The translations under genes and the position numbers were made by a program. The notes beneath the pieces are model-generated. The model made no database searches, was not told the DNA's origin, and saw only the letters and a program-made list of their open reading frames with translations. A stretch of 44,109 nt of DNA, taken from positions 1 through 44,109 of the IMG/VR virus record IMGVR_UViG_3300031539_000087; one strand, given 5' to 3'. The stretch is from a virus. Shown one piece after another: positions 1 to 20,727 of the stretch. Each line of letters begins with the position of its first letter. Positions within the stretch are counted from its first letter, which is position 1.

Positions 1-709
1 GGAACAGATGCCGGTAATCAAACAACGCCTTGGCAGGCTTGAGCGCTCGTAGGATCAACCCGTTGTTGAACTGAAGGATGAAGGGGTCAAGCGGGAATCC
101 CGTCCCGAACTCTCCTTCGATGAGTTCGCCATCGGGACCAGTCCACGTCGTCTTGTCTTCGACGTTGATCTCAAACGTGTGTTGGTCGTTGAGTCCCCAC
201 GCCGAGTTGGGATCGTACTGGAACGCTACCTTCTCCAACACGGTGATCCGAGCATCCGTCAGAAGCTCAAGACCCTCTTCTTGTGTGGGCAGCGTTCCAC
301 CTTGAAGCAACAACTCGATCATGCGCTTCAAAAAGCACCGGAACGTCAGGTCTCCGTCAATAATCGGGAACTGGTTGTTGGACACATCTGGGAACACCAG
401 TGTGCCGACCATCTGCCAGAGGAACTCCGGCCGGGTGAAATCCACATCGCTATCAAGCGAAGCTTCGGTCAGGAGGATCTGGAGATCAGCAAGGGTCTCA
501 GCAGCCGCTTGGAACTGGAGGTAGTAATACGGCCCAGGGATTTGTGCGACGTAGTTGGAAGCAAGTACCCGTCGAAACGTCGTGAGGATCTCATCGACGA
601 TGTTCTGCTTGGTTGTCGTCGTCTGTTGCCCCCGCAGGGTAACGGGAGCCGGGTTCTGCGGGATGGCGTTTGGAAGAAACGGCTTCTTAGGGGTTTTGTC
701 CTTCGCCAT
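1..709 (-). CDS. Baseplate wedge-like structural protein (partial, C-terminus off the left edge)
   Basis: Reading the minus strand from the ATG at 709 gives an uninterrupted frame of 236 codons that runs off the window. It begins MAKDKTPKKPFLPNAIPQNP and ends, at the edge, in a segment containing LKPAKALFDYRHLF. The ATG overlaps the stop of the baseplate-J gene (TAATG), and GAGG lies seven bases upstream, so translation is probably coupled. Position directly after a J-like gene, together with a late 'KPA..L.DYR.LF' segment, suggests a wedge component acting like T4 gp7 or P2 gpI. That assignment is from gene order and a weak motif, not from a recognised domain. The plus-strand frames over this stretch are shadows of this gene. 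Confidence 0.75.
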   Translation of the reverse strand, partial: MAKDKTPKKPFLPNAIPQNPAPVTLRGQQTTTTKQNIVDEILTTFRRVLASNYVAQIPGPYYYLQFQAAAETLADLQILLTEASLDSDVDFTRPEFLWQMVGTLVFPDVSNNQFPIIDGDLTFRCFLKRMIELLLQGGTLPTQEEGLELLTDARITVLEKVAFQYDPNSAWGLNDQHTFEINVEDKTTWTGPDGELIEGEFGTGFPLDPFILQFNNGLILRALKPAKALFDYRHLF

Positions 710-3700: not shown

Positions 3701-4239
3701 AGAGTTTGGGCTTCAAATTCGGGAGCACCATCCGCTGCAATGTCGATGTTGATGCGCTGGTATCCGGTGGCGCCACCGCCACTGAACTGAGACGCATAGA
3801 AGTTGATGCCACGAAACCGGGAGTCGTCTACTCCTTGGATACGAAGGACAACGCTGTCGTTGGTGCGCTCGACAGTGAAGTTGGTCGGCACCGTAGCGAT
3901 GACGCCAATGTCCGACTGCTGAACCAACGTGGCCCGGATCTCCGCAGAAGCGGACACCGCTCCTGAAAACGAAATGGAGCGGATACGGATGATGTTCTCA
4001 CCCGAGGCTAGTTCAAGACCATCTGCAAAAGCGGATGGGTTGGGGATCTGAAACTCGGTTCCTTCAAAAACAATGAAGTCCGGGTCGGAAACGAAAGGAC
4101 CCCCACGGATGGAGATCTCCATGTCCACCGTATCGCTGTCTACGACTCCCTTGTAGAACTGGTTGGGGATAGTCGTCGAGTACACCGTGGTGACACGAAG
4201 TACGCCGTCGGGGCCGTAGACTTGTGGTGTGGTGGCCAT
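709..4239 (-). CDS. Baseplate J-like wedge protein (gp6/gpJ family)
   Basis: This 1176-residue protein should be the main wedge subunit that links wedges around the hub and transmits the contraction signal. The baseplate-J signature lies at about residues 490-650: a beta segment with TRTLVIPLGTRVSSG, then VPVQAEQTGTAGNVSRGQIG, then NIQLATRARSALASVDVGTE followed by a segment about pairing residues in successive steps. Residues 1-170 look like beta-sandwich (fibronectin-like) modules preceding it, and residues 700-1176 form a long beta-rich extension. Typical J proteins are 300-660 residues, so this one is about twice as long. It starts three bases after the gp25-like gene ends and overlaps the next gene as TAATG. 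Family assignment is firm; the roles of the flanking extensions are inferred. Confidence 0.9.
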   Translation of the reverse strand: MATTPQVYGPDGVLRVTTVYSTTIPNQFYKGVVDSDTVDMEISIRGGPFVSDPDFIVFEGTEFQIPNPSAFADGLELASGENIIRIRSISFSGAVSASAEIRATLVQQSDIGVIATVPTNFTVERTNDSVVLRIQGVDDSRFRGINFYASQFSGGGATGYQRINIDIAADGAPEFEAQTLASFQSDNAIATNADGTVAADPLYVKVQETQTKGGDIIERLEDVTLTPELAAAITENEQKNLLKTDFVQQFEVPEGTTSIRSSYVLETVVESFFYSFNHNRLAGPTNTPATVPIGGFASLPTDQPLFYVARSVFYDEEALTEIESPNSIEVAGNPTIVTLTVGSFPTVSQLQIQQNVITDLQRTTPEVSLQPGAVIRDVFVDPFSGETVRLRFLTDFLHRSQSFDTLLAIDGLTAAGNPIPVTQSAYKTALQAAFALSRPDDAQFIIDQTFDQLAARNGKTRLSGKQARGIVTFFTRSTPTRTLVIPLGTRVSSGSVTYATTQDSRIPVENSAAFFDPTTGLYSVDVPVQAEQTGTAGNVSRGQIGSIVSNVPGLAVTNQNRTFGGEGVETNIQLATRARSALASVDVGTEQGIRQSAADQPGVEEANVIEAGNALMQRDFDPTNSVHVGGKADVWIRGSATGTVSDTFAFIFQEAFDVQFVLIGNPLSLIFRSLDPSLTEDNPLSEMLDFQSLGLGLRNASSGSYFNLDGYTVLDFRTIQLAPTQPSVSLGDVVLGDYRYVISRDFVLPRQPVSSVVSVTGQVSGLLPASSVQLWRVSDPLVLGRSAQAGAFIRIVPTEGVPSGNLIPITSESHVIIGEFNENLNNLGVSVLTIQVYNNTRTIQYRGPNDPSGVSDYTIIPGTESTSTAIRRIPGGNITSGQVLLVDYSYNENFVVQYTTNQVIVTTQNAIDNLKGVTYDILVKDAVASPIDISATVVKQTGFPTNAIQSGVQTNLESFLRGLPMGASIRQSDIITVIDSTNGVSFVTTPLTNLARDAGVVVIREPLTTASKGDNTMLLGTDNQPYSSSTVKVWLIEDELSAATTTGGGRENDFRGVFQDEKEMTLQTADPASLQSAPNKAFIIGNVGLSIPGFSDDATLEAQFPTATSAEIATKRQEITQNRILVSLSNDDRPSIHAYTVTYVVSVANQGPRNINGGELEYFTLGDLVLTVAEDG

Positions 4240-4241
4240 GT

Positions 4242-5387
4242 TTAGAACCCTGGAATCCCGAGAGGCGCAAGACCCAGTGACAGACCGTTCGTGCCAACCA
4301 ATGCAGCAGCGCCGGGAGCTGCGAAGACTGTGGAGATGAACACCGGCTCGCCTGAAGCGTTCTGAGCAATGATGTTGGTCTGGAAGACCGTTGGATCACT
4401 GGCAGCCGGGTTGGTCGTCACCGAGACGATGTTGTAGAGCCGCTCCTTGAGCGTAATCTCTTGAAGTTTGGCCTTCTGCGTCTGGAGGCGCTGGAAGAAG
4501 GTGACAGCGCGGGTCACATCTTCGTTGATGGACATCCGCACGGCTCCTCCAGCTTTGGACCCAATACGTTCCATCAGCGTCGTGCCAATGCGTGGGTGGA
4601 AAGGGTTGGACCCCTTCCGTGTGATGACCATCTTCAGAACTTCTTGATTGAGCAAATCTTCGTTACGAACGATGAGAGGCTCTCCCGTTGCAGCGAACCG
4701 GATGTCGTTCTCGATCCCCGTAGCACGACATCGACGACATCGTTGGATGTATGTCACATAACTGACCTTGAAGACGGGGTTGCCCTGGATCGGCTCGTTG
4801 AACTTTGGAAACCGAGTCGTGATGACTTTGAGGTCATTGATGTTGGCCAGATTGGTGACTTCCGTGGCTTCCGCCATCCCCCATGAAGGGTAAACCTGAC
4901 GCCCACGAGCCCTGGTTTGGAAATCAAGACCCAAAGTCTTGGCGGCATCCCCGCTCACCACAACACGCGAAGAGGGACCAAGCTCAGATTGGTCTTGGAT
5001 CACCAACACGCCGTCCCGACTCGTCACTGTGATTTTGACGCCGGCCGTCATCAGAGCAGCGTTCAACACCGACACGATACGCTCCGTTGGGAGACGGGGC
5101 CCAATCGGGAGAACGATGCCGGTTACCGACATCGTGCGGTTCCCGATGGTAAGGGTGTTCGCACATTTGTCGATGCTGTAGGGGCCCGACTTCGCTGCCG
5201 TCAAAGTAGCGGCTGAGAAACGACCTTCCGGTGGGATGTTGACGACGTTGTTCGCCGTGATCCTCACCATGTTGGCAGAAGCTACAGGTTGACGCGTAGA
5301 CAAACTTCGCCTGTCCTCACCGAGAGGGACTACCTCTTCAATGGTTAGGTGGCGGCACTCGTGCCCAAGCTGGAAATCGAAACTCAT
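4242..5387 (-). CDS. gp25-like baseplate wedge protein with extra N-terminal domain
   Basis: A 381-residue protein whose C-terminal half (about 210-335) matches the GPW/gp25 style: a CRRC motif (C217, C220), then GIENDIRF, a helix LLNQEVLKMVITRKGSNPF and HPRIGTTLMERIGSKAGG. gp25 joins the wedge to the sheath's first ring in T4-type tails. The N-terminus (HLTIEEVVPLGEDRRSL, RQPVASANMVRI) precedes a separate module at about 91-160 (RLPTERIVSVLNAALMTAG ... VLVIQDQSELG ... TLGLDFQTRARGR). That module resembles the small domain found in flagellar and hook proteins and in phage sheaths. Classical gp25 is about 130 residues, so this is an enlarged form. Start chosen at the first ATG because the leading 40 residues look native to the family. 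GAGG lies only two bases before it, which is close. The stop is followed by the J gene after two bases. Confidence 0.82.
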   Translation of the reverse strand: MSFDFQLGHECRHLTIEEVVPLGEDRRSLSTRQPVASANMVRITANNVVNIPPEGRFSAATLTAAKSGPYSIDKCANTLTIGNRTMSVTGIVLPIGPRLPTERIVSVLNAALMTAGVKITVTSRDGVLVIQDQSELGPSSRVVVSGDAAKTLGLDFQTRARGRQVYPSWGMAEATEVTNLANINDLKVITTRFPKFNEPIQGNPVFKVSYVTYIQRCRRCRATGIENDIRFAATGEPLIVRNEDLLNQEVLKMVITRKGSNPFHPRIGTTLMERIGSKAGGAVRMSINEDVTRAVTFFQRLQTQKAKLQEITLKERLYNIVSVTTNPAASDPTVFQTNIIAQNASGEPVFISTVFAAPGAAALVGTNGLSLGLAPLGIPGF

Positions 5388-6364: not shown

Positions 6365-8980
6365 CTATTCGCTCGATGAGAAAAGAGCCTTGAACAGTTC
6401 AAGGGCAATGGTGGGGAGACCACCAGCCAAAAGGACGACACCACCGCCGTAGGTCTCAGGAGGATCGAAAGGTTTGTTGTCAGCGTTGACGAGAGCGCTC
6501 AGCACCCCATCTGTGCCATTGGCTACAACAACCAATCCTGAAGTCGGAGGAATGGAGATAAACAGGTTGAGGAGCTGTTGAATGATGGCGTTGATGCGGT
6601 TGAGAAACGCCTGCAACTCGATGATGCGGGACTGGAGCATCTCGATGTACTTGTTGATGAGGTCGGCAAGCCCCTGGATGGCTGCTTGGATGGCTTTGAG
6701 CAGAGCAAGGAGCTGGTCGAAAAAACGGTCAATGTCTGGCAGCCCTTGGGGGAACAGCCGAATAGCGATCCAGCCCTCTTCTTGAGGACGTTGGATCGGT
6801 CCAGCGGCTACCTGAAGGGCAAACTGCGCAGCAGCGAACACATCATCGGGAATCAAATTCCTGACGTATTCAACAAAAACGGGGGCATACGGATCTGAAT
6901 TCGTGGCGCTCGTTGCTCGTGAGTAGAGAACAGGAGCGAACTCCACCGAACTGTCACTGGAGCTGTCAGGAGCATTTGGATTTATGAAAAAATGACTCCC
7001 GGCAAAAAGGCGGTCCTTATTCTCGTAAATGTTCCAGCAGGCTTGGGCTACCTGTTTGTCACCGTCGTACCCCAAAGATGCCTGGTTCAGCGCAAGCCCG
7101 TACAGCGTGTTGCTGTCGCTGAGAGCATCGAAGATAGAAAACCCTGTCACTTCACCAGGAGGGGGGTGTACCGGTGGGTTTTCTGCGGAGCCTCCAAATG
7201 TGAAGTTCAGGAGCGGTTCACAACGATCCACCACAGCTTTTAACAACGAAGCTGGAGGGTTGTTTGTCGCAATAAGTTCGTTCGCCAGGTTGAGGCAAGC
7301 TTTGCGAAGTTTCCGACGCCATCCCGCAGGGTTGACTTTGGTACGGTTGAAGTATTTGGCGGATTTACGGCGCCCCGTCAACCGAGGCATCAGAACCTGG
7401 GCCTTGGTTTCCAACTGAGTAGCCCGACGTGCTTTGGGAACAAACCCATTCCAGTTGCTCGGGATAGGGTTCCCATCGGCATCCTTCATCCCCTCTTCTG
7501 GTGGGAAAAAGAGTTCGGTGTCGCCCTCACCCAGAAGGACATCAATGTCCGCACGACACAGAACGAGCAAAGCCAAAGCTTCCGTCACACACTGGAGGTA
7601 CGCTTCGGTGTTGGCGTCGGGGAACGAAATCTCAACCGGGAATGACGGATCTCCGATGTCTCCTTGAGTGACCTCCGGGTTGTCCATCGCAACCGCCGGT
7701 TGAGGTTGCCGAAGAATAGTGTTGTCCACCTTCCAGGCCCGATCCTCCACACTATTGATGGCACGCGAAACGGCTCGGACACGGACAAAGTAAGAAGTAG
7801 GTTTGGTCTTCGGCCCTCGTTTGACTTTGCCGGTGCTTCCGTCTTGCTCCCAATCCGCATCAAACGGAAGATCTTTGGCCAGGATGGTCGTGCCGTATCC
7901 GCGTCCCGGATAGAACAAACTAGCCGAAACCGGGACGTAGAAGGAACGCTGAAGGAAGTAGTCGTTGTCCCTTAGTTGAGCCAGGTCGATGGGGGCCTGG
8001 GACGCAATACTTTTGAACGTATAGACCCGAGCACCGTCCGGTTTGATTTTGCTTTTCGCTACCGCCTGATTGAAGTTGATGAGTCCGGTGGTTTCGATTT
8101 GATCGTAGCCCCCGGTCAACAAGGCAGGGTCTCCGTTGGGATCCGACATGATGCCACCGTTGATTTTGCCTGGCTGCTGAGTCAACTCCAACGTGGGGAG
8201 CCCAACCTGTTGATCGAACCACAAAGGAAGCCCGTCTCGGACGGTCGAGATCTCGATGATGAAACCCTTGGGAGCGAACTGAGCGAAGTTTGTGAGGAAG
8301 TTGCCCGGCACCGGGGCCATCGCCCAGGTCAGATTGACTGCATCAAACGGAGACTGCCCTCCACTCTTGACCGCAGAAAACAAACCCTTCCCAAAAGTGA
8401 GAACGCTTGCGCCATCTAAACCGTATTTGGCTTGGACTTGAGTGACCTGGCCGACGGTCTTCATCTTGGGCGGCTTGCGATTGAAAAGCTGGAGGATGCC
8501 CTGAAGCAATCGGGTGATGCGCTGCACGTTGGAGATATCTGCCCCAACGTAAAGGAACACCGCAATGCAGGCGGAGAAGGGCGAAATGTCCGGGCGGTTG
8601 GGGTCGCGCTTGTCCACCAACCGAGTGATCATGCGCTGCTCGTAGGCTTGAAACCCTCCGCGAAGCTCTTTGAAATCCGGGCCCTTGATGATGTAGAAGT
8701 CGCCGTGGATGTAAAGGCCCGCGTTGCGTAGATCGTTGAGGATCTGCTGAATCAGCGCAAGGATGGCTTCGATGATCGCAATGATGGGGTCAAGGAACGC
8801 CCCGATGAAGACCTTGAGAACCTCCAGAACCGCCAGCAGGATGTTCAGGATGTTGATGAGGATCGAGAAGAAGGTGTTGACCGCATCACGCACCGGCTCC
8901 AAGAAATCCGGCGTGACGAACTCAATGGTTCCCCACGATCCCGATACTTGATCGAGTGGTCCTCCTTCGGGGTTTGGCAC
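6365..8980 (-). CDS. Large baseplate-region protein with amphipathic/hydrophobic helical ends
   Basis: 871 residues, function not recognised. The N-terminal part (about 28-86) and the C-terminal part (about 745-812) are both long runs of Leu/Ile-rich helix, for example FFSILINILNILLAVLEVL and LLALLKAIQAAIQGLADLI. The centre (about 90-740) is beta-rich and includes a fibronectin-like strand pattern near TSYFVRVRAVSRAINSVEDR. The start codon is GTG, supported by a strong ribosome site GGAGG (8988-8992) seven bases upstream and by the TAAGTG junction with the preceding gene. No signal peptide is seen, and the helical ends carry charged residues, so they are more likely interaction helices than ordinary membrane spans. 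A role in anchoring peripheral baseplate parts or in membrane contact during injection is possible but speculative. Confidence 0.75.
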   Translation of the reverse strand: MPNPEGGPLDQVSGSWGTIEFVTPDFLEPVRDAVNTFFSILINILNILLAVLEVLKVFIGAFLDPIIAIIEAILALIQQILNDLRNAGLYIHGDFYIIKGPDFKELRGGFQAYEQRMITRLVDKRDPNRPDISPFSACIAVFLYVGADISNVQRITRLLQGILQLFNRKPPKMKTVGQVTQVQAKYGLDGASVLTFGKGLFSAVKSGGQSPFDAVNLTWAMAPVPGNFLTNFAQFAPKGFIIEISTVRDGLPLWFDQQVGLPTLELTQQPGKINGGIMSDPNGDPALLTGGYDQIETTGLINFNQAVAKSKIKPDGARVYTFKSIASQAPIDLAQLRDNDYFLQRSFYVPVSASLFYPGRGYGTTILAKDLPFDADWEQDGSTGKVKRGPKTKPTSYFVRVRAVSRAINSVEDRAWKVDNTILRQPQPAVAMDNPEVTQGDIGDPSFPVEISFPDANTEAYLQCVTEALALLVLCRADIDVLLGEGDTELFFPPEEGMKDADGNPIPSNWNGFVPKARRATQLETKAQVLMPRLTGRRKSAKYFNRTKVNPAGWRRKLRKACLNLANELIATNNPPASLLKAVVDRCEPLLNFTFGGSAENPPVHPPPGEVTGFSIFDALSDSNTLYGLALNQASLGYDGDKQVAQACWNIYENKDRLFAGSHFFINPNAPDSSSDSSVEFAPVLYSRATSATNSDPYAPVFVEYVRNLIPDDVFAAAQFALQVAAGPIQRPQEEGWIAIRLFPQGLPDIDRFFDQLLALLKAIQAAIQGLADLINKYIEMLQSRIIELQAFLNRINAIIQQLLNLFISIPPTSGLVVVANGTDGVLSALVNADNKPFDPPETYGGGVVLLAGGLPTIALELFKALFSSSE

Positions 8981-9265
8981 TTACCGTCCTCCCCCATGTA
9001 AAAGACGCTGACGTTTCTCCGCCATCGCGTTGATGGTCTTCTGGTCGTCCGCAATCTGCATTCCCAGAAGCTCACCCAACTTCTGCAATAGGAGCGCTTG
9101 CTTCTTGAACGTCGGCAACGTCTTGATGATTGTGTCTTCGTCCTTCTCCGAAGGATTCCAATCCCCCACAGGGAAGCCCATCTCTTTGAGACGACGCTCG
9201 ATCTCCTCCTTCGTCATCTTGGAGACATCGAAGTTGGCTTTGTCGTACTCGTAGTTGATGTTCAT
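8981..9265 (-). CDS. Small helical protein, unknown function
   Basis: 94 residues starting MNINYEYDKANFDVSKMTKE, almost entirely predicted helix, highly charged, with a C-terminal HGGGR. The start at 9265 is chosen because GGAG sits about eight bases upstream and the ATG overlaps the TGA of the giant gene (ATGA). The same frame is open upstream to 9397, but that part lies inside the giant gene and is Arg-rich like a shadow. Its stop is immediately followed by the GTG of the 871-aa gene. Size and place suggest a small assembly partner or linker of the flanking large proteins. No domain is recognised. Confidence 0.75.
   Translation of the reverse strand: MNINYEYDKANFDVSKMTKEEIERRLKEMGFPVGDWNPSEKDEDTIIKTLPTFKKQALLLQKLGELLGMQIADDQKTINAMAEKRQRLLHGGGR
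8988..8992 (-). promoter_or_regulatory. Strong ribosome binding site for a GTG start
   Basis: GGAGG within GGGGGAGG on the minus strand, seven bases before GTG 8980. It decides the start of the 871-aa gene and overlaps the last codons of the 94-aa gene. Confidence 0.75.
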
Positions 9266-12200
9266 TTGATGCTCTCCACGGACTCGGCGAGTCGCATCTG
9301 TTTGAGTTCTTCTCGACGGCGTTTGGGAAGCTCTTTGGCGAATCTCTCGGCCGATTCCAGAGTGCCGGATTCCCGGTTCACCCGGAAATCGAGCCATGCG
9401 AGCCGAAGTTCGCGGAATTGGTCGTTGTTGTTGAGCACGTCGTCAATGAGGTCGGGAAGGACTGGTCGACCATCTCCATCAGGAGCAGAGGGGTTGTTGG
9501 TGTTGCTCTCCAATGTGGAGTAACTGGGGACGCCGGCCTGAAAAGGTGGGAACTCCCCATCAAGGCGAAAGTCATTGACCCAAAACCGACGATCGAGCAC
9601 CGAAAGCCCATCTGAGTTGTTCGCGTAAGGCGAAATGTTGACCAAACCAGCCGCCCCTTCCACAAGAGCGTTGGACATCACACCCAATCCTTCGTCGGGG
9701 ATGGTCGGGTTACCCAGGTCAGAAATGTGCTCATCACGTTGGAAGACGAAGTAGTTGCCGTACTTGTCCCCCCGGAAGAACACCCCGAAGACATCCAAGA
9801 AGCTGAAGATACGCTCACGGTGCATCAGGATGAGGTCGATGGCTTCATCGCTGAACAATCCGCTGGGTCGGAAAATCCGATACGTGAAAGGTGCAATCGA
9901 AAACAGGTTGTCTTTGAACGAGTTGCTGCCCGACCCGTACTCTCCCGCAAACGCCGTAGGTCGTAAGTCCATCTGACCTTCGACTCCTACGATGGGCGGA
10001 GAAGAGAAGGGCGCTCCTGAGTTGGAGATCGTCGGGTACACCGCGTAGATCGCTTCAGAACCCGCCGTGACAAAGCCTGTGGCGATCTCTTGGGAGAACA
10101 GAGTGTCCGAAGACACCACAACCGAATCAGCCAGCACCTCGGTGACTCGATACCAACCACGGTTGTCATCAAGCTCAGCCGGACCACCTGCCTCAAAAGG
10201 AACTTCCTGTCCGGGTTGAGCTGAAGTGCGCTGTGGAACACTGCGGTCCCCAAAAGGACGGAACCCTCGCTCTTGTCCTGTACTGGGAACCCCACCCGGT
10301 CCTTGCACCTCTCCGGCGGGGTCCACAAGGAGGATGTCGCCCACTTGGACACCCAAGGCAGCAAAGTTGATGGACGTGTCAGTGTCTTGAAGACGACGTG
10401 CGTCTGTCGGGTTGGACTCAGTAGGCACCCATCCGCCGTCTTGCGTCAGGTAGTCCGCTGAACGGTCAAAGATGACCTCCTGCGTGATCTGAGAACGAAG
10501 CTGCTCGTTGCTCTGCTCATGTGGGACCGGGACCGTCCGCATGTACACCTCAAACGCTTTGCCAGCCACATCGGAGGCAGCGACCTTGGTGAAGCCAGGC
10601 GACTTGAGGGCCAGAGTCTCACCGTCTTCGATAGCGGCAATCTCCACCTCATCCAACAACGTCCCGTCATCGTCCAAAAGACGGAAGGTGTCTCCGGGGT
10701 TGATGTTCACGTCCTCGCTGTCAAAGTTACCCAGTTGGGTGCCTCCCGTTGCCGTGATGACGTAAGGGTAGACATCCCCGTTGGGCGAAACCGGAGCTGA
10801 CCCAAAAGTCGTCACCGTGCCTCGACGAATCAAGTAAGCGAACTTGAGGGGTTCAAGGATCTCACCAATGCCTGCAAGCTGCTCGTGGTAGCGACGGATT
10901 CGACGAACTTGGTAGGTGACAGGAACTGCTCCTGGCGCATCTCCGAAGTTGGAGCGGAACCCTAGATCAGCCGCTGGCAGCGAATGTGACGCATCGACGA
11001 CTTGGACATCCGGGCCATTGAGATCCTGTGTGGACCTCGGAACGGAAGGCTCAAGGAAGATACCTGCCTGGGCGGAGTACCCGAGCGCGCCCCCTGTGGT
11101 GATGGAGTCGCCGGGCATGAGAGCCAGGATGGCTCCTGCTGGCGAAGTCGTGTGGAGAGTGTTCCAGTCTACTGCGGGGAGGGCCAGCTCCATGTGCTCT
11201 GGGATGCTGTCGTAGACGTAGGCATTTTCGTCATTGACGAAGGTGCCATTCGGGATGGGCGTTGCCGGAGTGACGTTGATCTCCCCACCAACTTCCAGAA
11301 TCTCTCCCGCCGCTGCTGTTTTAAGAACGGAAGTTGCGAGTTTGCTGTTTTCCAATTCAAGGGATGTGAACCCAACCGTTACCGTTCCAGGTATTGTTGC
11401 CAAGCCAACAAGGTTACGAGGCAAGACCTCTTCAGGAGCCTTGTCGAACTGGATGTCCATGAGGTTGAACCCAGCCACGATCGTGGTTCCCGTAGCCAAG
11501 GCATCCAAATCCGCAACCGTAGCCGGAGTCCCTCCGAAGGTCGAAATGGTTGCGGGGTTGATGGTGAACTCCCCCGTGACGGTGTTCACCGCCGTGTAGT
11601 CCATGTAATAGTTGTTGGCCAACCAACCCGTTGCAGGAAGTTCTTGGTCAAATACCGTCAACACGTACAAACGACCTGTCGGGGCAAACGCTGAAGTCAC
11701 TCCGTCGGCCAACAACACGTTGTCTACGGTGATGCGGTTGGTCGCATTTGCGTTGAAAGCTGTGACAACCGGGAAGCGGACTTGGGTGAACCCGACCCCG
11801 GTGTTGAAAGGCAACGTCGTTGTCGTCAACTCCAGCTCACGCGCCCCAGGCACGGTCTCTTCAACAGCGTGCTTGACCAAATGCGTTCCGGCCTTTGACG
11901 AACCCTTGGGAGTAGCGTCCGCCGAACCCCTGATGGTCAGGATGTCACCAGGCAACACCGTCTCGACCGAGAAGCTGGGAGACAGCAAACGGAAGTTCTG
12001 CATCTCGGGGGTAATTCCCGAAATGCCTGCGGTGCCGGTGCCCCCTGAGATCAAACCCGTTTCGTCGCGTGAAGACGAAGGGATGGCCGAAAACGTAATG
12101 TCGTCGCCCGTCACGATGGGAGTGTTCCCATGCCCCTCAAAAGCTGGAACCTTGACCGTGCCCCGGCCCGTTCCGCCTGTGCCAACAGAATCAAACGTGC

Positions 12201-15200
12201 TTCCAGCAAAGGGGTAGAAGTCGCTTTGCCGCAAGAAGGTGAACGGCACACCTCCGTTGACTTCAGCAGGATCGTTGACTGCTAAGACATCCGTAGCTGC
12301 TCCAGTTACCCAGAAGACCTCCAGTTCGGAGAAAACATCTGGGCCACCCGCATCTGGTGAAACCTCATCGCGGGGCAGCATCCCTCGTAGATCAAGAGTT
12401 TCGTCGAAAGTCAGACGGTCAACAGCAATGAAACCCGTCAAGCTGGCTGCGGGGTCGGCAACCGTCGCCGCCGAAGAGGTATCGACATCAACGGTGAACC
12501 ACAACGGTACCGACTGTCCGGGACTCAAAGGGTTCTCAGGCAAATCACCGGGAGCCGGGACAGGAGCGATGGTGAAGATCGGAACTGCCGTGTCCACCGT
12601 CAAGAAGTTGTCGTCTGCTGTCGGCAAACCCACGATGGGGATGAGAGGGCCAGGTGCCGGAACCTGTGTCTGAGCCGTCCAAACACCACCGGACCCTTTG
12701 AGGATGACCGTCTGCAAGTACGGAGAGCCGCCCCCATCATCCGCAGTCCAGACATGGATGGTGATGGCGTTGTCGTTGGCCGGATAAGCGAAAGGAGCGC
12801 CGGGGTTGATGATGTTGTTCAACCCTCCCGTCAAACCACCAGCCGAACCGTCGTTGAAAACAACCAACCCGGACGACACCGACGTGATGTTGAAACGCGT
12901 GACGGTCAACGGTCGGTCAATGACCATGCCCACGGTTGCCGGGGCCGGGATGACGTTCTGATTCACAAACGACATCGCCGTTCGCAGGCGATAGCGGAAC
13001 CTGTCCCCCACAACCGAATGAGTCACAAACCGTGGGGGACTAATGACCGAACCGGAGGCTCCACCTACCACGGAGCCGACGGACAACATCCCTTGCGATC
13101 CGTTGGGAATCCCTGCTTGTCCTGCTTCGACGAACAAAAAGTCATAGGCTCCGACATTCCCGATGCCCGAGTGAGGCGTGTAGGCTCCAGCCGTGATGAC
13201 AGGCTGTGCATCCTGAGAAGTCAGCAGCACTGCGGGAAGGTTGCTACCTGAGAAGGTGCCCAAGATGGTTCCGTCAGAACCCAGGATCTCATCAGGGAAC
13301 ACTGCACTGGGGACCGACGTGTCCGGGGTCAGAAGCTGAAGGAAAGCCGAAGCCGCTTGACCCAAACGGTCAATCTCCGTGTTCTGAGCGTACAGGTACG
13401 GCAGCGTGTAATCGCCGCTGTCATTGGTGAACCCGCCGACCAGTGCTGGAATCGGTGCCGGAGTGATGCTCCCATTGCGGAACTTCACATCCGCGTCGAT
13501 GTAGTCCATCGGCTTGGGAGGGTCTTGTCCAAAGATCTCTTTGAGACCAAAGAGGGAAGGATCGTCGTAAGAGGGCCAAGAGTTGTCTTGGAACTCACCG
13601 TCTGAGCGATCCACCCGTAGATCAAACTGAATACGAAATCCCGGAAGACCGGTGGCGTATTCTTTTTTCTCGGTCTGAGAAGGTGCCGCGTCCACATCCG
13701 AAGCCACTTGAGCATCTGGGGGAGTGACGAACACTGTGTCGCCCTGGAACAGCTCGATGGGTGCGTCGGTCGATGCCGGGTCTTCACTAAGCTCCAAAAC
13801 CGCACCGGGTCCGAGAGGCCCGGAGTTGTCTTGGTCCGTGAACGTGATGACACAACCCAGTGCGACTTCACCAACAAAGACCTTCTTGGTGACCGTGAAA
13901 TCAAGGCCACCAAACGAATAGGAGAAGCTGTCCGACGTGGCCACGTCGATGATGCGACCATCCGGGCGACCGAACGAGACCATCGGTTTACGTGATGCGT
14001 CCGCAATGGTCTCCCACGGAGGGGTGAACAAAGTGGGATCTCCTGTGGACAAGTCCGGTAAGGAGCCACCATTGGCGATGAGCTGCGACAGGTCTGGCAA
14101 CCCGTTGTCTGCAAGCGGGAACTCGCTAAACGGAAGAACCGTGGCAATCACTGCCGGACGGGGGTCATCGGTGAACGTGGGGAAGCCCGCAGCCGCCATG
14201 TCGTCATCCAACTCCGGGAATCCGATGTTGGAGTAAGCGAAGATGCGCGCACGAGGGTATCGAAGGACAACATCTACGGAAGAGACGTTTTCGATTTGAC
14301 CAAGTACGGGGTTCTCGATTTGGCCAATCGCCTTCTTGAAGGTGCTGGCTCGCTTGGGCAACGAGATGCCGCCCTTGAACGACAGTCGGCTGATGCGTTT
14401 GCGGAACGAGTACACGCCCTTCTTGATGGGCGTCGCGTCCAGGTCCGAATTGATGCCTGGATCAAGTTGCGTGAAAGCTTCGGTGCGTTCGGGGAAAACC
14501 CGGGAGAACCGGTTTGGCTCCCCCATTCGACGAAAGCGACCAAACGCTTGGAGTTTGAACGGGAGGAGGCTCTTGATGCGCTTACGGGTTCGCCCAATAA
14601 GCACGATGTCGTCCACATCGTTCTGAACCACCAGACGCTGCTCACCGATGAGGTCCCCAAGGAGGTCGGAGTCGGGGAAGTTTCCTTCGATTTGATCTCC
14701 CGCCAGCACTGCTGATGCGGGATCGACCACCGGGTCGCGGGTCAGGAACCACAACGCTGCGTTGAAAGCCAAAAAGACTTCCGTGAACGCATTACGTTCG
14801 TTGAGATCACCCGTGATGGCGTCTTCGTATCCGGGAGGCGGAATCTCTTTGCCACGCCCAATGAAGAAACGGAACTTCCCATCACGGTCGCCGACGATGT
14901 TGCCCGAGATGGTCTCAAGGATTTGCTCAAACGGGACGATGACTTCGTTGTAGAACTCCAAGAAGACTCGACCTGCTCGGTCTTGGTCTTGGAAATCCCG
15001 AAGTTGAGCTTTGAGTCCAAGTCGTCCTTGGTTGGCGTTGTTCGCCGGAGGGGGAACTGCCGCTGCCGGTCCCTGTGAAGGAAGCCGAGCAGAGATGTCC
15101 CGAGCTACGTTCTCAGCGACTTCACCGATGTACTCAAGGAGAGGCACTGCCCGGTAAAAGAAGGAATCCGGGTTGGAGAAGGTGAACGTCCCTTTGAGGA

Positions 15201-18200
15201 TGCGACCCGCGATGCCATTGTCGTCGGAAGGGACGATGACGTTTGTGTACGAAGCCGTAAACGCCGGGACAATGGTTACGTCGTTGTCGAGAAACGGCGA
15301 CAGGAGAGCGACCTGAATGTGCCGAAGATAGAGCGTCTCCCCTGGGAGGATTGGGCCCTCTGGAGGGTTGAGGTACGCAACCTCCCCTGTGTCTGCGTCA
15401 ATCTCGTAGTCGATGGCCGGACGTAGAACCCTGCCGGGAAGGGGCACACCCGCACTGGTTTCTCCAAACAAGACTGCATCGAACGCCGACCCTGGGAACA
15501 AACCACCTCGGCCCAAGAACTGCGTGGACCCAATCGCGTAGATCGGACGAACCGAGATACGAACGGGGTCGGTACCGAAGCCAAACCCACGAGGGAAAGG
15601 AGCCGACACGTCAATCGTGGTCTTGGTCCCATCATCCGAGAGCGTCGAACCCGTGATGACAAACGGGAGACCTGAGATCTCCAGAATGTGCTCCGTCACA
15701 GCAAGCTGCGTGAAGTCCCCTAGGAAGATGATGTTGACGTACCCACGGTTGACGGGCTGGTATGGGGCCGTGACCTCTTGCCAGAAACCATTGGGAGCGT
15801 CTGGGTTGTAGTCCTTGGCAATAGGGATGCCTGACAACAAAGCAGGAGCTTCATCTCCTGCGTTCCGCGACCCTGCTTCTTGTGTGGTCTCAGGGATGAA
15901 CTCAACGGTCGTGACATCCAGAGCAGCGTCGTAGGTCACAGCCGTCAGATAGAAGGGAGCCGCTCCCAACCGAAGAAGCTGCCCAGGGAGGACATCATCA
16001 GTCCGGTCTTCCGCCAACTCAAAACTGGTCTTGTTGGCTTCAATGAAGAAAGGCGGACGATAGACGGGCTGTTGCGAACAGGTGTACGTCTCTTCGCCAC
16101 CGAAAGCTTCAAGCACGGCGTAGTTGATCTTGACAACCTCAGTCTCAGGAACCGGGATCTTGAAGTTGATTCGGCTTGTCTCAAACTCTGTGATGGACTC
16201 CGGGCTCGACCCGATGTTGGTCAACGTGCCACCGATCCAAACGAGGGTGTCGATGTCCGCTCGGGTGGTTCGTTCCGTGGGGTTGAAGTCCCAATACTGG
16301 ACCTCCCCTGTGGTTGTGGGCGTGGCGACCTCTTCCCGAACAAACAACGGAAGGAACTCAATGATCCTGACCGGCTGTGGTGGAGTCTCGGGGTCGTCAG
16401 GGTTATCGACGAGCTTCAGGGTGCCACTTCCGCTGTTCGCCAAGAAATAATCGACTTCGACGACTTGGAACTCACGAAGGGGCTTGGAGAAGGCAAACGA
16501 TCCCTGGATGGCGTTGATGGTCACATCCTGGTTGTTGGTTGTGATCATCTGTTCGACGAAATACGTCGTCGTTCCGCCATACTGCGCCATGTCGGCTGCG
16601 GAGAAGTTCAACAGCCCATCCGCAGGGTTGTACTCGGTCGTGCCCTGTGGAAGCTCAACTGGGCTCAGGTCGGGATCGAGGAACGCTTGGGCGTACACCG
16701 CATCCGAACCCTCAAACTGCACGAACACGTCAGCACCGAAGTTCAGCAGACCATCGGACTCTTGGACCTCGATAACGTCCCCAGCCAAACTTGGCGTGAT
16801 GGTGGTTACTTTGATGAGATCACCAGCAGCAAACGTGTACGTCCTGGTGTTGACCCGGATGTCGAAGTTGCCGTTCGCAAACCGTTCGGACGACACATTA
16901 GGAACAACCAAAGTGTCATTGGCCAAGGTTCCAAGGACACTTTGCGTCAACCCCACCAAAGAAGAGGTGGGACTCGCATTGGGGAGTCCGAAGCGCATGT
17001 TGATGCTGCGGCCAGAGGACAGCGCATCCGCCATGTACGCGGAAAGACGGGTAGCTGTTTGAGCCGCCGCATCCGCAGGAAGGTCTCCTACGCTGGAGAG
17101 CTGCCGGATACGGAAAGGTTCTTCAGGGAGATGGTTGAAAGCCGAATAGACAACATCAGCCAGGATGCCTGGATCGAAGCTGTCCTTGTCGATGCCCTCA
17201 AACAACTGCCACGGAAGGTTCTCGCCGGAGACCGCAAACGCTGGAGAGACTTCCAGGGAGTTGGTTGCCGTGGCGTCAGCCGTGACGATGTAGACCCCGG
17301 CTGCGTCTCCTCGCTCGATTTCAAGCTGGTAGCCAGCTTTGACCCCCAACGCCACGAAGTCGATGTCCGCACTGGGGTCGGTGAAGGTTGTTCCACCAGC
17401 CGTGAACGATCCTCGGCCGCCCAGGACCACAGAGGTCCCCACGGAGTTGATGAGGTTAGCAAGCCCTGAAGCTCCCCCATCAAGAAGGTCGAAGTCCACC
17501 CCCAGTTGCTTCTCAAGGAACGGTCCCCCTTCAGAGACACGAAGCCCTTTGCCGGGACACTGGAACGAAGTCGGGATGATGCCCGCGTTCCCAAGAGGGA
17601 GCGAAGGCGTTGGTTGTTCGATTTGACCAAAAACCCGAGAGGTCGTGGTCCATGAGAACTTGCCCAACCCGAACTCGTAAAAGACCGTCTCGTAGTCTTT
17701 CAGGAGACGTTGGTTGAAACCGTCTTGGATCGAAAAAAAGACGTTCTCGTCGTACCCGGCCACATCTTCAAGCGGCACTCGTGGCAACAAGACAATAGGA
17801 CTTGCTGGGATCTGACTCTGAAGAACGATGTTGTCGAACCGAGCGATGGAGTTGATATCGCTGATGTCGTCTTTGCTGCCGTTCAGGTTGAGCGGACTGC
17901 GGAAAACACCAAGGTTCGTACCTGAGTCGGGGAGCCAGTTCAGGTCCGGCGGCGGGTTGACTACCGATGGGGAAGTGACCCGGACAATCCAACCCGGCAA
18001 AAAACCCAAAGCCGTGGGGCCAGATAGGTCTTTCTCTCCGTTGGGACCGAAACCGATCTCAATGGTCCCGTAAAACACTCCGTTGGATTGGGAGGCTCCT
18101 TGAAGAACAACCCTGTCTCCAATAACCACCGCCGAACCCGCGTTGGTGATGACCGCATCGAGACTGGTGGCGATGTCCGCGGGCGTGAATGTTCCACCAG

Positions 18201-20142
18201 CAGATGTCGCTACGCCACCTGGATCAGTTGAAGCATCCCAAGTGAAAATGCTGTTGCCGATCCTGAAGACCAACACTTCGGTGCCCACCAGAACAAACTC
18301 CTGACGCACCCGAGAAAAGATCTGTGTCTGGTTGGCCCATACGGCGGGTTCGACACCAGATTGCAAAAAGTAAAGAAGCTCTCCGCTGAACCGCGATTGG
18401 TCTTCTTTGGACAAATAGACACGAGACCCTCCATTCCCCTCACGTAAATCCACAATGGCAACGCCTCGTGGAATGCGGAAAGCGAACTTGGGGATTTCGT
18501 CATCGTCGTCCACCAAACGAATCGTGCGAAACTGCCCCGCCTCACCGAACAGGATCAAGTCCCAAGGACCGCGTACATCCCGCACAAGTCCTGAAGGATT
18601 GGGCCGGATGGAGGGGTCTGTTGTGGTGTTGGGGAGGGTGCCCGTGGTGTCAGGAGTGAACTGCACTCCTGAGATACCAGGAGTGACCACAGGGGCCGCG
18701 TCAGGGATGTATCGAGGGCTGTCCCCAGCAATCTGTGCGGGGTCGCCGTTCCCGTCCACGAGGGCCACAGGGGCTCTCAGGGTGATGGGTCGCTGGGAGA
18801 GGCTCACACCGTCAAAGAAGACTTCAGCGCCCAGGTAGCTTTTGTTGAAAGAAAGCGACTCCGGGTCGGTCTTGGCGATGTCCGCCTCACTGAACTTCAT
18901 ACGCCCAGTGGTCAGGCTGATGGCGACTTGCCCCTCAACGACAACCTGATTCCCCAATGCTGCATCGCTTTCCACCAAAAAGGCTTCCAAAGCATTGCGC
19001 GATCCGATTCGGATGAAGGGGTAGTCGGTTGGCCCAGGGATCGGTGCCACAAACAAGGGCTGCAAATCGGCGGTGCTCAAAGCACCCAACGATTCGACTT
19101 CATCCTGGTCAACGAAACCACGGTACGAATAGAAAACCGTTTGCCCCGCGAACTCGTCAAGGAACGTCGGGTTCCACTGGATCTTGCCGGTGGTGTTTCC
19201 GACAACGCCCGCATCTGTTGGGTTGGTCGAGAAGTCGTACTCTTCATCGGCCTCTTCGTCCGTGACAACAAGCAGACCTCCAAAGCCAGAGCCCGCCACG
19301 GGCTGAGCAACAGGGATCGACGAACTGTCGGGACGAGATCCAATGCGGACCATCGAGTAGCTATCGGCTACCGAGCTGTCCCCTGGAAGGTACTCACCCA
19401 ACGTCACCGTCGGTGCAGGACTCAGGAGATACTCTTCCCCCGAAATCAAGATGCCCAGGTCACGAGGAGGAGTCCCGTTGAGAGGCTCCCATCGTTGGAC
19501 GGCTCCGTTCCATACGAAACGAAGCTCGTAAAGATCGTTCTTGGTCCACCAGAAGGTCGGAGGCGCTACCGAGTATTCGACGCTTTGAAGACGGTCGCCT
19601 CGATCTGAAGAGAACCCACCACCCAGTGCTAGGAGGAGAACGGGGTTGGTCGAAATGTCCAGAACGCCCGTCACCGGGTTGAAAGGAGCAGACGTAACAT
19701 CGACGGCTACTCCGTTATCTCCACGGGTGACGGTGGCCGAAGTCAGAACCGAGATGGTTCGGTTGGCATCATCAACAAGGACGAGACGTGTGGTTCCGTC
19801 AGTGAAAGGCTCGGACGGGTCGTTGGTGTTGGCAACTTCCAGTTCACCTTCAGGGATAGTCCCGGTGCCTTCGTTGGAAATCGTGAAGCTGTCTACGGTT
19901 CCGAGATTGGCGGTGTTGGCAGCCCAGATCAGATACTCGGTCGTAGGGTCGGTACGCAACAAGATGGCCGAGCGATACTGGTCGCTCGCCACGTTGACGT
20001 ACTCCGGTGCCGGGATCGTGTAGACCGGCGGCAAGGACTTGAAGTCCTTGGAAACCCCGTTGGAGGCTTCGTCCGTAGTCGTCGCGTTTGACGGCGCAGT
20101 GCGTGGTGCCCGAAGGACATACCCGTTTGTATTAAGGGCCAT
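9262..20142 (-). CDS. Giant 3626-residue modular structural protein
   Basis: One uninterrupted frame of 10.9 kb, about a quarter of the window. The protein is beta-rich, acidic and cysteine-poor, and looks like a chain of small repeated modules. One recurring pattern is 'TG.h.F..AD....G..V.Y', seen near residues 323, 418, 1181, 1285 and 1588 (for example DGLLNFSAADMAQYGGTTTY). Another is 'F.ALGV..GD.L.I...G.Y.V', seen near 931 and 3261, with related barrel-like segments near 2730 and 3148. The C-terminus is helical and charged (LPKRRREELKQMRLAESVES). There is no signal peptide, membrane span or catalytic motif. The ATG lies three bases after the preceding stop with only a weak ribosome site, so coupling is likely. 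Position between the spike and wedge genes suggests a giant baseplate, skirt or fibre-like element. This is inference; no family was recognised. Confidence 0.85.
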   Translation of the reverse strand: MALNTNGYVLRAPRTAPSNATTTDEASNGVSKDFKSLPPVYTIPAPEYVNVASDQYRSAILLRTDPTTEYLIWAANTANLGTVDSFTISNEGTGTIPEGELEVANTNDPSEPFTDGTTRLVLVDDANRTISVLTSATVTRGDNGVAVDVTSAPFNPVTGVLDISTNPVLLLALGGGFSSDRGDRLQSVEYSVAPPTFWWTKNDLYELRFVWNGAVQRWEPLNGTPPRDLGILISGEEYLLSPAPTVTLGEYLPGDSSVADSYSMVRIGSRPDSSSIPVAQPVAGSGFGGLLVVTDEEADEEYDFSTNPTDAGVVGNTTGKIQWNPTFLDEFAGQTVFYSYRGFVDQDEVESLGALSTADLQPLFVAPIPGPTDYPFIRIGSRNALEAFLVESDAALGNQVVVEGQVAISLTTGRMKFSEADIAKTDPESLSFNKSYLGAEVFFDGVSLSQRPITLRAPVALVDGNGDPAQIAGDSPRYIPDAAPVVTPGISGVQFTPDTTGTLPNTTTDPSIRPNPSGLVRDVRGPWDLILFGEAGQFRTIRLVDDDDEIPKFAFRIPRGVAIVDLREGNGGSRVYLSKEDQSRFSGELLYFLQSGVEPAVWANQTQIFSRVRQEFVLVGTEVLVFRIGNSIFTWDASTDPGGVATSAGGTFTPADIATSLDAVITNAGSAVVIGDRVVLQGASQSNGVFYGTIEIGFGPNGEKDLSGPTALGFLPGWIVRVTSPSVVNPPPDLNWLPDSGTNLGVFRSPLNLNGSKDDISDINSIARFDNIVLQSQIPASPIVLLPRVPLEDVAGYDENVFFSIQDGFNQRLLKDYETVFYEFGLGKFSWTTTSRVFGQIEQPTPSLPLGNAGIIPTSFQCPGKGLRVSEGGPFLEKQLGVDFDLLDGGASGLANLINSVGTSVVLGGRGSFTAGGTTFTDPSADIDFVALGVKAGYQLEIERGDAAGVYIVTADATATNSLEVSPAFAVSGENLPWQLFEGIDKDSFDPGILADVVYSAFNHLPEEPFRIRQLSSVGDLPADAAAQTATRLSAYMADALSSGRSINMRFGLPNASPTSSLVGLTQSVLGTLANDTLVVPNVSSERFANGNFDIRVNTRTYTFAAGDLIKVTTITPSLAGDVIEVQESDGLLNFGADVFVQFEGSDAVYAQAFLDPDLSPVELPQGTTEYNPADGLLNFSAADMAQYGGTTTYFVEQMITTNNQDVTINAIQGSFAFSKPLREFQVVEVDYFLANSGSGTLKLVDNPDDPETPPQPVRIIEFLPLFVREEVATPTTTGEVQYWDFNPTERTTRADIDTLVWIGGTLTNIGSSPESITEFETSRINFKIPVPETEVVKINYAVLEAFGGEETYTCSQQPVYRPPFFIEANKTSFELAEDRTDDVLPGQLLRLGAAPFYLTAVTYDAALDVTTVEFIPETTQEAGSRNAGDEAPALLSGIPIAKDYNPDAPNGFWQEVTAPYQPVNRGYVNIIFLGDFTQLAVTEHILEISGLPFVITGSTLSDDGTKTTIDVSAPFPRGFGFGTDPVRISVRPIYAIGSTQFLGRGGLFPGSAFDAVLFGETSAGVPLPGRVLRPAIDYEIDADTGEVAYLNPPEGPILPGETLYLRHIQVALLSPFLDNDVTIVPAFTASYTNVIVPSDDNGIAGRILKGTFTFSNPDSFFYRAVPLLEYIGEVAENVARDISARLPSQGPAAAVPPPANNANQGRLGLKAQLRDFQDQDRAGRVFLEFYNEVIVPFEQILETISGNIVGDRDGKFRFFIGRGKEIPPPGYEDAITGDLNERNAFTEVFLAFNAALWFLTRDPVVDPASAVLAGDQIEGNFPDSDLLGDLIGEQRLVVQNDVDDIVLIGRTRKRIKSLLPFKLQAFGRFRRMGEPNRFSRVFPERTEAFTQLDPGINSDLDATPIKKGVYSFRKRISRLSFKGGISLPKRASTFKKAIGQIENPVLGQIENVSSVDVVLRYPRARIFAYSNIGFPELDDDMAAAGFPTFTDDPRPAVIATVLPFSEFPLADNGLPDLSQLIANGGSLPDLSTGDPTLFTPPWETIADASRKPMVSFGRPDGRIIDVATSDSFSYSFGGLDFTVTKKVFVGEVALGCVITFTDQDNSGPLGPGAVLELSEDPASTDAPIELFQGDTVFVTPPDAQVASDVDAAPSQTEKKEYATGLPGFRIQFDLRVDRSDGEFQDNSWPSYDDPSLFGLKEIFGQDPPKPMDYIDADVKFRNGSITPAPIPALVGGFTNDSGDYTLPYLYAQNTEIDRLGQAASAFLQLLTPDTSVPSAVFPDEILGSDGTILGTFSGSNLPAVLLTSQDAQPVITAGAYTPHSGIGNVGAYDFLFVEAGQAGIPNGSQGMLSVGSVVGGASGSVISPPRFVTHSVVGDRFRYRLRTAMSFVNQNVIPAPATVGMVIDRPLTVTRFNITSVSSGLVVFNDGSAGGLTGGLNNIINPGAPFAYPANDNAITIHVWTADDGGGSPYLQTVILKGSGGVWTAQTQVPAPGPLIPIVGLPTADDNFLTVDTAVPIFTIAPVPAPGDLPENPLSPGQSVPLWFTVDVDTSSAATVADPAASLTGFIAVDRLTFDETLDLRGMLPRDEVSPDAGGPDVFSELEVFWVTGAATDVLAVNDPAEVNGGVPFTFLRQSDFYPFAGSTFDSVGTGGTGRGTVKVPAFEGHGNTPIVTGDDITFSAIPSSSRDETGLISGGTGTAGISGITPEMQNFRLLSPSFSVETVLPGDILTIRGSADATPKGSSKAGTHLVKHAVEETVPGARELELTTTTLPFNTGVGFTQVRFPVVTAFNANATNRITVDNVLLADGVTSAFAPTGRLYVLTVFDQELPATGWLANNYYMDYTAVNTVTGEFTINPATISTFGGTPATVADLDALATGTTIVAGFNLMDIQFDKAPEEVLPRNLVGLATIPGTVTVGFTSLELENSKLATSVLKTAAAGEILEVGGEINVTPATPIPNGTFVNDENAYVYDSIPEHMELALPAVDWNTLHTTSPAGAILALMPGDSITTGGALGYSAQAGIFLEPSVPRSTQDLNGPDVQVVDASHSLPAADLGFRSNFGDAPGAVPVTYQVRRIRRYHEQLAGIGEILEPLKFAYLIRRGTVTTFGSAPVSPNGDVYPYVITATGGTQLGNFDSEDVNINPGDTFRLLDDDGTLLDEVEIAAIEDGETLALKSPGFTKVAASDVAGKAFEVYMRTVPVPHEQSNEQLRSQITQEVIFDRSADYLTQDGGWVPTESNPTDARRLQDTDTSINFAALGVQVGDILLVDPAGEVQGPGGVPSTGQERGFRPFGDRSVPQRTSAQPGQEVPFEAGGPAELDDNRGWYRVTEVLADSVVVSSDTLFSQEIATGFVTAGSEAIYAVYPTISNSGAPFSSPPIVGVEGQMDLRPTAFAGEYGSGSNSFKDNLFSIAPFTYRIFRPSGLFSDEAIDLILMHRERIFSFLDVFGVFFRGDKYGNYFVFQRDEHISDLGNPTIPDEGLGVMSNALVEGAAGLVNISPYANNSDGLSVLDRRFWVNDFRLDGEFPPFQAGVPSYSTLESNTNNPSAPDGDGRPVLPDLIDDVLNNNDQFRELRLAWLDFRVNRESGTLESAERFAKELPKRRREELKQMRLAESVESIK

Positions 20143-20145
20143 AGC

Positions 20146-20727
20146 TCAAAAGACCACCGAGAGGGAGGTTCCTGCGGCGGGGATGGGAGAGGGAGGACCA
20201 ACTACGCCGCCGAAGCCGTAGCCAGTTGCAACCAGAGTAGCGAGACCGTTTCCGAGCCCGGTTCCAAGTTGAGAAGCAAGCGTCCCGTTGATGCCTGCCG
20301 CCTGAAGGTTGCCGATCAATATACCGATGAGCGTTGCGGAGTTGGCGAAACTGATTTTGGACACATCCGCCCCAACTCCCACACCGATGGAGACCCCCGT
20401 GTACTGCGCAGACGAATTCAAGATGGCTGCCGTCCCGTTTTCGACCGAAGTGCCGATGCCTTGCGAGTTCACTCCGTTGATCCCAGCAGCCTGAAGAGTT
20501 CCGATGGTTGCGCCACTGGGTGTGAAGAACATCTTGCCGTTGACGGAGCCGCCCCCTGCGACACCGATGGTCACGCCTTGGTTCAGCACATTGATGATGA
20601 GGGGTAGCCACGACAGCATGGAGCTGCCAACCGCCGAAGCGATCAGAGGCATGTTCTGAGTTCCAGGGAAGTTCGCATTGGCGATGGCCAGAATCGAACC
20701 TGTGATTGCTGCGGAAGCTACGGCCAT
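20146..20727 (-). CDS. Small Gly/Ala/Ile-rich virion protein with duplicated domain
   Basis: 193 residues built of two tandem copies of a roughly 53-residue unit, at 51-103 and 111-165. Each opens with GV(T/S)IGV and carries the core LQAAGING. Residues 1-50 are hydrophobic (ITGSILAIANANF, LSWLPLIINVLNQGV) and the end is a Pro/Gly-rich tail. Overall the protein is rich in Gly, Ala, Ile and Asn and nearly free of charge, as expected for a packed beta assembly or a membrane-seeking protein. Its ATG overlaps the spike gene stop (TGATG). Placement between the spike and the giant protein suggests a part close to the spike tip or hub. It has no PAAR-type metal-binding histidines or cysteines, so I do not call it a PAAR tip. 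Confidence 0.75.
   Translation of the reverse strand: MAVASAAITGSILAIANANFPGTQNMPLIASAVGSSMLSWLPLIINVLNQGVTIGVAGGGSVNGKMFFTPSGATIGTLQAAGINGVNSQGIGTSVENGTAAILNSSAQYTGVSIGVGVGADVSKISFANSATLIGILIGNLQAAGINGTLASQLGTGLGNGLATLVATGYGFGGVVGPPSPIPAAGTSLSVVF
20233..20577 (-). repeat. Tandem duplicated coding unit in the 193-aa gene
   Basis: The segments 20419-20577 and 20233-20397 encode two copies of one unit (GVTIGVAGGG...LQAAGING and GVSIGVGVGA...LQAAGING). The similarity is clear at protein level; at DNA level it is best around the LQAAGING codons. Confidence 0.8.

Follow-up and report, generated by a model that had tools for sequence, protein, structure and literature searches.

A 44,109-base virus record, analyzed here over its whole length and referred to below as the window, raises the question of what a protein of 3,626 residues might do in a phage tail. 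The first-pass annotation had placed this open reading frame at 9262-20142 and described it as the largest gene of the window. Both statements proved exact: the frame lies on the minus strand, with its ATG at 20142 and its TGA at 9264-9262, no other ORF in the window is as long, and the plus strand of the same stretch carries stops throughout. The encoded protein has an acidic, soluble composition. Searches of Pfam and PHROGs matched it to no family, and in these two databases no enzyme, fiber or chaperone domain was recognized, in agreement with the earlier reading. A profile built from the giant family likewise matched no PDB sequence, so a known family with some other role, which the first-pass annotation had allowed for, did not emerge from any of the three. 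Judged by these searches, the family is new to Pfam, PHROGs and the PDB sequences. Giant baseplate proteins as a class are already known; what is new is the family itself.

By sequence comparison the giant gene sits inside a contractile-tail baseplate cluster, as had been proposed, since its neighbors are gpJ-, gp25-, spike- and hub-like. Genes on the same strand run 5' to 3' as tape-measure-like, hub, spike-like, 193 aa, giant, 94 aa, 871 aa, 315 aa, gp25-like and gpJ/gp6-like (Table 1), which puts the giant gene on the upstream side, ~3.9 kb from the gp25-like gene and ~5 kb from the gpJ-like gene. The gpJ assignment is strong, the gp25 assignment moderate and the spike assignment weak. The 193-aa gene is kept between the spike and giant genes in 41 relatives, with a median identity of 40.5%.

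Several neighbors have features of their own. The 193-aa protein is nearly uncharged (1% acidic and 1% basic residues) and contains two internal repeats. The 871-aa protein, conserved in 43 relatives, has amphipathic or hydrophobic helical segments at both ends and a weak match to tape-measure-type PHROGs (E 0.006). Among relatives the hub-like protein ranges from ~1,270 to 1,950 aa, and the genes around it are constant in size. At the edge of the window, an ORF at 38872-44109 (minus strand, at least 1,745 aa, its 5' end cut by the end of the record) resembles the tail-sheath C-terminal domain in its C-terminal ~300 residues and consists of ~100-aa repeats in its N-terminal ~900; it had no Pfam or PDB match and no meaningful PHROGs match, and it is possibly a giant, repeat-decorated tail sheath. 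A 126-aa ORF at 38403-38783 (minus strand) had weak similarity, below the cut-off, to S-adenosylmethionine decarboxylase (E 0.0015).

Table 1. Features of the giant-gene locus in the window, with the evidence for each.
Feature	Coordinates	Strand	Evidence
gpJ/gp6-like baseplate wedge protein	709..4239	-	PF04865 E 5.8e-24; phrog_6 E 7.7e-31; PDB Baseplate J E 2.6e-8
gp25-like baseplate protein	4242..5387	-	phrog_975 E 5.6e-6; phrog_2669
871-aa baseplate-cluster protein	6365..8980	-	synteny; 43 relatives
94-aa helical partner gene	8981..9265	-	ATG overlaps giant TGA (ATGA)
Giant protein, probably of the baseplate, 3,626 aa (P0001)	9262..20142	-	ORF; full-length relatives; single copy in all nine long records searched
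Charged C-terminal helices, residues 3562-3625	9268..9459	-	model; block 3501-3600 conservation 0.57
B-type module, residues ~3241-3290	10273..10422	-	HMM-seed self-matches
Predicted small beta-barrel, residues 3096-3210, including the B-type copy near 3152	10513..10857	-	AlphaFold model
Fastest-evolving island, residues ~2750-3000	11143..11895	-	closest-pair identity; family profile
B-type module, residues ~2701-2750	11893..12042	-	matches ~3268 in 31/46 sequences
Most conserved block, residues 1701-1800, with long helix 1707-1746	14743..15042	-	conservation 0.64; model
Predicted small beta-barrel, residues 1454-1530	15553..15783	-	only domain whose fold is clearly matched
A-type beta modules, residues ~1126-1190	16573..16767	-	hhalign and HMM-seed self-matches
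B-type module, residues ~920-981, 'FVALGVKAGYQLEI..GVYIV'	17200..17385	-	seeds 931-980 match ~3335 in 40/46
A-type beta module, residues ~390-440	18823..18975	-	profile self-match to ~1141-1190
A-type beta module, residues ~301-350	19093..19242	-	seed 1111-1160 matches ~327 in 33/46 sequences
193-aa Gly/Ala-rich protein, upstream of giant gene, 3-nt gap	20146..20727	-	
Spike-like protein, 805 aa	20727..23144	-	Phage_base_V E 0.018 (weak); synteny
Hub-like protein with M15 peptidase region, 1,950 aa	23153..29005	-	phrog_894 E 2.5e-5
Tape-measure-like gene	30998-34231	-	our own reading of the sequence

Relatives of the giant protein proved numerous among uncultured viruses. Six close loci in IMG/VR were followed by at least 185 stretches encoding relatives, and 75 loci were kept. 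Contigs of 618, 536, 497 and 436 kb were among those carrying them, and three further contigs were filed under prokaryote MAGs (L079, L080 and L081; uncultured bacterium, Terriglobia and Altiarchaeales). Megablast against phage records found nothing, and the sole tblastn match in a collection of 50,697 phage records was LR745208.1, a 485-kb uncultured huge phage that encodes a relative. Complete members measure 3,444-4,164 aa, and the lowest pairwise identity among 46 non-redundant members is 29%. The gene order around them, in aa, is 1270-1950 / ~805 / ~190 / giant / small / ~800-1020 / ~300 / ~390 / ~1170, and in nearly all relatives with flanking sequence the giant gene lies between the spike and the gp25/gpJ genes.

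Each of nine long records searched whole contains exactly one giant copy. Of 44 gpJ loci that could be tested, 32 have the giant gene ~5 kb upstream. We checked whether it is missing from some relatives by searching whole nine gpJ contigs with no giant gene nearby: all four of at least 89 kb have it at another site, and none was seen in the other five, possibly fragmentary contigs of 39-68 kb. In some members gpJ is tens of kb from the giant gene (L078, L129/L053, L143/L076); in L078 the giant, small and ~870-aa (867-aa) genes stay together, while the remaining cluster has moved and the upstream neighbors have changed.

The gene immediately downstream appears to be a dedicated partner. Of 46 members, 42 have a homologue of the 94-aa gene (E<=6e-9) directly after the giant gene; the 94-aa gene was absent from the first-pass gene listing. 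The homologues are 67-134 aa long, share the motif 'mT.EEl...Lk..Gi.pg.W ... RLkhGGG' and, in 28 of 43 cases, start at -3 or 0 relative to the giant stop; LR745208.1 keeps the partner after the giant gene despite a rearranged surrounding operon. Defining the unit as a full-length homologue followed by a gene of ~67-134 aa, we found that the window locus fits it. The stop/start coupling suggests that synthesis of the two proteins is matched, and we infer that the small one may serve as a structural clip or a chaperone.

We then considered how sequence change is distributed along the chain. Over the 46 members the majority-residue fraction stays between 0.35 and 0.64 per 100-residue block for the whole chain, with peaks at 1701-1800 and 3401-3600 and a minimum at ~2401-3000. 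Between the two closest members (72% identical), residues 2700-3000 fall to 44-54% identity versus 66-87% elsewhere, and residues 2750-3000 are likely, on this pattern, to form an exposed surface. Apart from this one modest island, no hypervariable or length-variable distal part was seen across the 46 members. Median identity to relatives is 35.5% for the giant protein, 35.2% for the hub, 38.1% for the spike, 41.2% for gpJ and 31.0% for the 871-aa protein. Receptor-binding fibers normally diverge faster and vary in length, and appendages normally combine variable length with variable tips. Because the divergence of the giant protein falls among the hub, spike and gpJ values, unlike that of fast-diverging, length-variable fibers, these data argue for a core structural role.

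This pattern bears on two alternatives. The first-pass annotation had suggested a tether, a skirt or an extended whisker attached by its C-terminus, that is, an appendage anchored at one end and projecting from the baseplate. Although a long chain of small beta domains with an acidic, soluble composition and a helical C-terminus that could act as an anchor would suit a whisker, a tether or a flexible skirt, the even conservation, the narrow length range and the lack of a free variable end do not; nor were collagen, collar, fibritin, fiber or chaperone domains recognized in Pfam or PHROGs. We therefore consider an appendage unlikely, and a free tether or whisker in particular was not borne out, given even conservation, a nearly fixed length and divergence like that of hub and spike. 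The skirt fared differently: as a peripheral ring or 'skirt' scaffold it is compatible with our data and overlaps the explanation preferred below, whereas its free-appendage form is less likely. A receptor-binding or host-recognition protein, for its part, could account for the faster island at 2750-3000 and for a module that resembles the barrel of a capsule lyase tailspike (7w1d), but conservation equals that of hub and spike, a single copy is common to very diverse phages, and no adhesin, depolymerase or fiber domain was recognized (Pfam, PHROGs), which makes such a function very improbable.

The first-pass annotation had described recurring beta modules and had proposed internal repeat detection to confirm them. 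BLASTP of the protein against itself found no repeat at E<=1; the modules are too diverged for this comparison, and profiles were therefore needed. In a profile self-comparison built on the 46 non-redundant homologues, residues 314-423 aligned with 1126-1186 at an hhalign probability of 91%. Fifty-residue HMM seeds gave 159 off-diagonal matches that recurred consistently, each in at least 8 sequences, versus 13 on reversed sequences, and the best seed matches had positive mean bits in 20-43 of the 46 homologues, while none were positive in the reversed control. Copies of one module class, A, were located near ~327, 411, 555, 586, 1141 and 1174, and those of a second class, B, near ~929-960, 2733, 3152, 3268 and 3335, with a third pair near ~1390/1490; classes A and B correspond to the two motifs originally read from the sequence. 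The pairing of the B-type module at ~920-981 with 3140-3200 is weak (hhalign 37%). On this profile evidence the modules recur above chance, though they are highly diverged.

Segmented structure prediction, also suggested at the outset, agreed with this architecture. AlphaFold2 models with 45-sequence alignments covered residues 1250-2449 (pLDDT 76.5, pTM 0.50) and 2427-3626 (pLDDT 81.5, pTM 0.71), and both are strings of beta domains. Helices were predicted near 1668-1746 and at 3562-3573, 3576-3588 and 3594-3625, the last three matching the charged helical C-terminus that had been anticipated; this conserved terminus could be a docking element. The predicted barrel at 1454-1530 aligned with a domain of capsule-lyase tailspike 7w1d (VIA Z 10.6, rmsd 1.9 A, 74 aligned residues) and, at lower scores, with the Mystique tail tube (9n71_A, Z 8.8), the JBD30 baseplate (8rk3_D, Z 8.6) and T5 pb9 (Z 7.7). 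In the model it is a common small fold that decorates tail proteins and implies no specific function. The barrel at 3096-3210 showed weak similarity (VIA Z <=6.9) to EF-Tu domain 2-like and lambda tail-tip barrels.

The C-terminal model as a whole gave middling VIA scores (Z <=7.0), and a Foldseek search of the PDB with the C-terminal 1,200 residues found no match at E<=1e-3. Helicases and a norovirus P domain that appeared as top Foldseek rows were rejected, having TM-scores of ~0.06. For the modeled residues 1250-3626, no fold match in the PDB comparisons spans the whole chain and none is to a wedge protein, a result that is not evidence of absence. In BFVD, the predicted structure matched a cyanophage 'baseplate wedge initiator', a VrlC-like protein of phiM9, an S-CBWM1 wedge protein and phage G gp211, weak matches (TM ~0.07) that we treat as leads only.

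The barrel also brings up the idea that the giant protein is a hub-side component, enclosing the central spike and tube as an adaptor or sleeve. The spike and 193-aa genes adjoin it in almost every relative, and T5 pb9 (Dit) and domains that decorate tail tubes are among the matches of the barrel module; yet 3.6 kresidues is far above any such adaptor known to us, and the spike linkage is not absolute, the L078 gene having stayed with the small and 867-aa genes after its upstream neighbors changed. We regard this possibility as improbable, more so than an appendage. Least credible of all is an assembly scaffold or other non-virion protein: the case for presence in the virion is built on gene position and sequence, but a protein this large, built of beta modules and encoded in a baseplate operon, has the marks of a structural one.

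Taken together, these observations lead us to favor, with slightly better than even confidence, a core virion protein that forms an outer-baseplate scaffold in huge contractile-tailed phages and works in the manner of T4 gp7. Several lines of evidence point to this role: the fixed position between the spike and gp25/gpJ genes; one copy per long record, including the four in which gpJ is unlinked; full-length homology within a narrow length range and with no hypervariable tip; divergence on a par with hub and spike; a barrel module resembling tail tube, distal-tail and baseplate barrels; and precedents in the Bellamy protein, for size and operon, and in VrlC. One very long chain of beta domains would wrap or span the baseplate wedge, linking the conserved center (hub, spike, gp25-like, gpJ/gp6-like) to the periphery, much as T4 gp7 does with six copies per tail but on a much larger scale. 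The C-terminal helices and the long-helix block at ~1700-1750 would be the likely docking elements, the beta modules would act as spacers and protein-protein contact domains, residues 2750-3000 would face outward, and the ~75-95-aa helical protein would be an obligate assembly or structural partner. Against the giant protein in the gp7 role, a gene of ~430-460 aa found after gpJ could be the true gp7/TssG equivalent.

A bolder version, which we put forward tentatively and hold to be rather doubtful, is an undescribed lineage-wide design in which a ~3,600-aa chain and its coupled ~10-kDa helical protein stand in for several separate peripheral wedge proteins (gp7/gp8/gp10-like); six copies of one chain would then make up most of the outer baseplate. 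Huge phages are widespread and, to our knowledge, tail-machine structures have been solved for few of them; the giant protein is among the biggest unexplained pieces of such a machine. What makes the family of interest is its great size, its tight conservation, its small partner gene and the fact that no long record tested lacks it. The gene thus offers a ready lineage marker and, with its partner, a defined two-protein unit for expression and structure solution.

Among known systems, single sequences gave chance scores against the family HMM for Bellamy gp111, the phiM9 gp7-like protein, phage G gp189 and phiM9 VrlC (-9.4 bits; the sole VrlC compared), as did the baseplate regions of phage G, Tunturi_5 and HyRo, which were chosen for their related gpJ. 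Since homology to gp7, VrlC and the Bellamy protein went undetected with single sequences, we claim membership in none of these groups, and the role proposed above is one that we infer. Large proteins of up to 7,694 aa, some tentatively structural, have been reported in huge phages by Al-Shayeb et al. 2020, whose text does not single out or characterize the giant family (PMC7162821). T5 pb9, the lambda and Chi tail-tip barrels and tail-tube decoration domains have a fold in common with one or two giant modules, but the pb9-type likeness covers only ~75 of 3,626 residues and the small fold is widespread.

In cyano- and pelagimyophages, the place of T4 gp7 is reportedly taken by VrlC (PMC7029224). 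Like the VrlC-type proteins of cyano-, pelagi- and rhizobial myophages, the giant protein is a large, beta-rich baseplate protein, with weak Foldseek similarity to them; phiM9 VrlC (1,737 aa), however, is half its size, and its gene has different neighbors, lying after gp8 in phiM9. T4 gp7 itself (119 kDa) is a multidomain monomer present in six copies per tail at the wedge periphery (PMC3004832). The giant protein would share with it the part of a multidomain peripheral wedge scaffold contacting gp6, but gp7 is about three times smaller and its specific domain was not found in the giant protein. Whereas gp7 genes follow gp6, the giant gene lies upstream of gp25/gpJ, so that the gp7-type trait of adjoining gp25/gp6-type genes is present, but on the upstream side. 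In Synechococcus phage Bellamy, the gp25-/gp6-type genes are followed immediately by gene 111 (ASR76156.1), whose 4,067-aa product carries the annotation 'baseplate wedge initiator'. Its role comes from annotation only, its sequence is not similar to ours, and it follows gp6 whereas the giant gene precedes gp25; pieces of the protein nevertheless showed a weak whole-chain Foldseek similarity to the giant chain (E 3.6e-4, TM ~0.07), and the two are alike in giant size, in a baseplate operon adjoining gp25/gp6 and in belonging to large phages.
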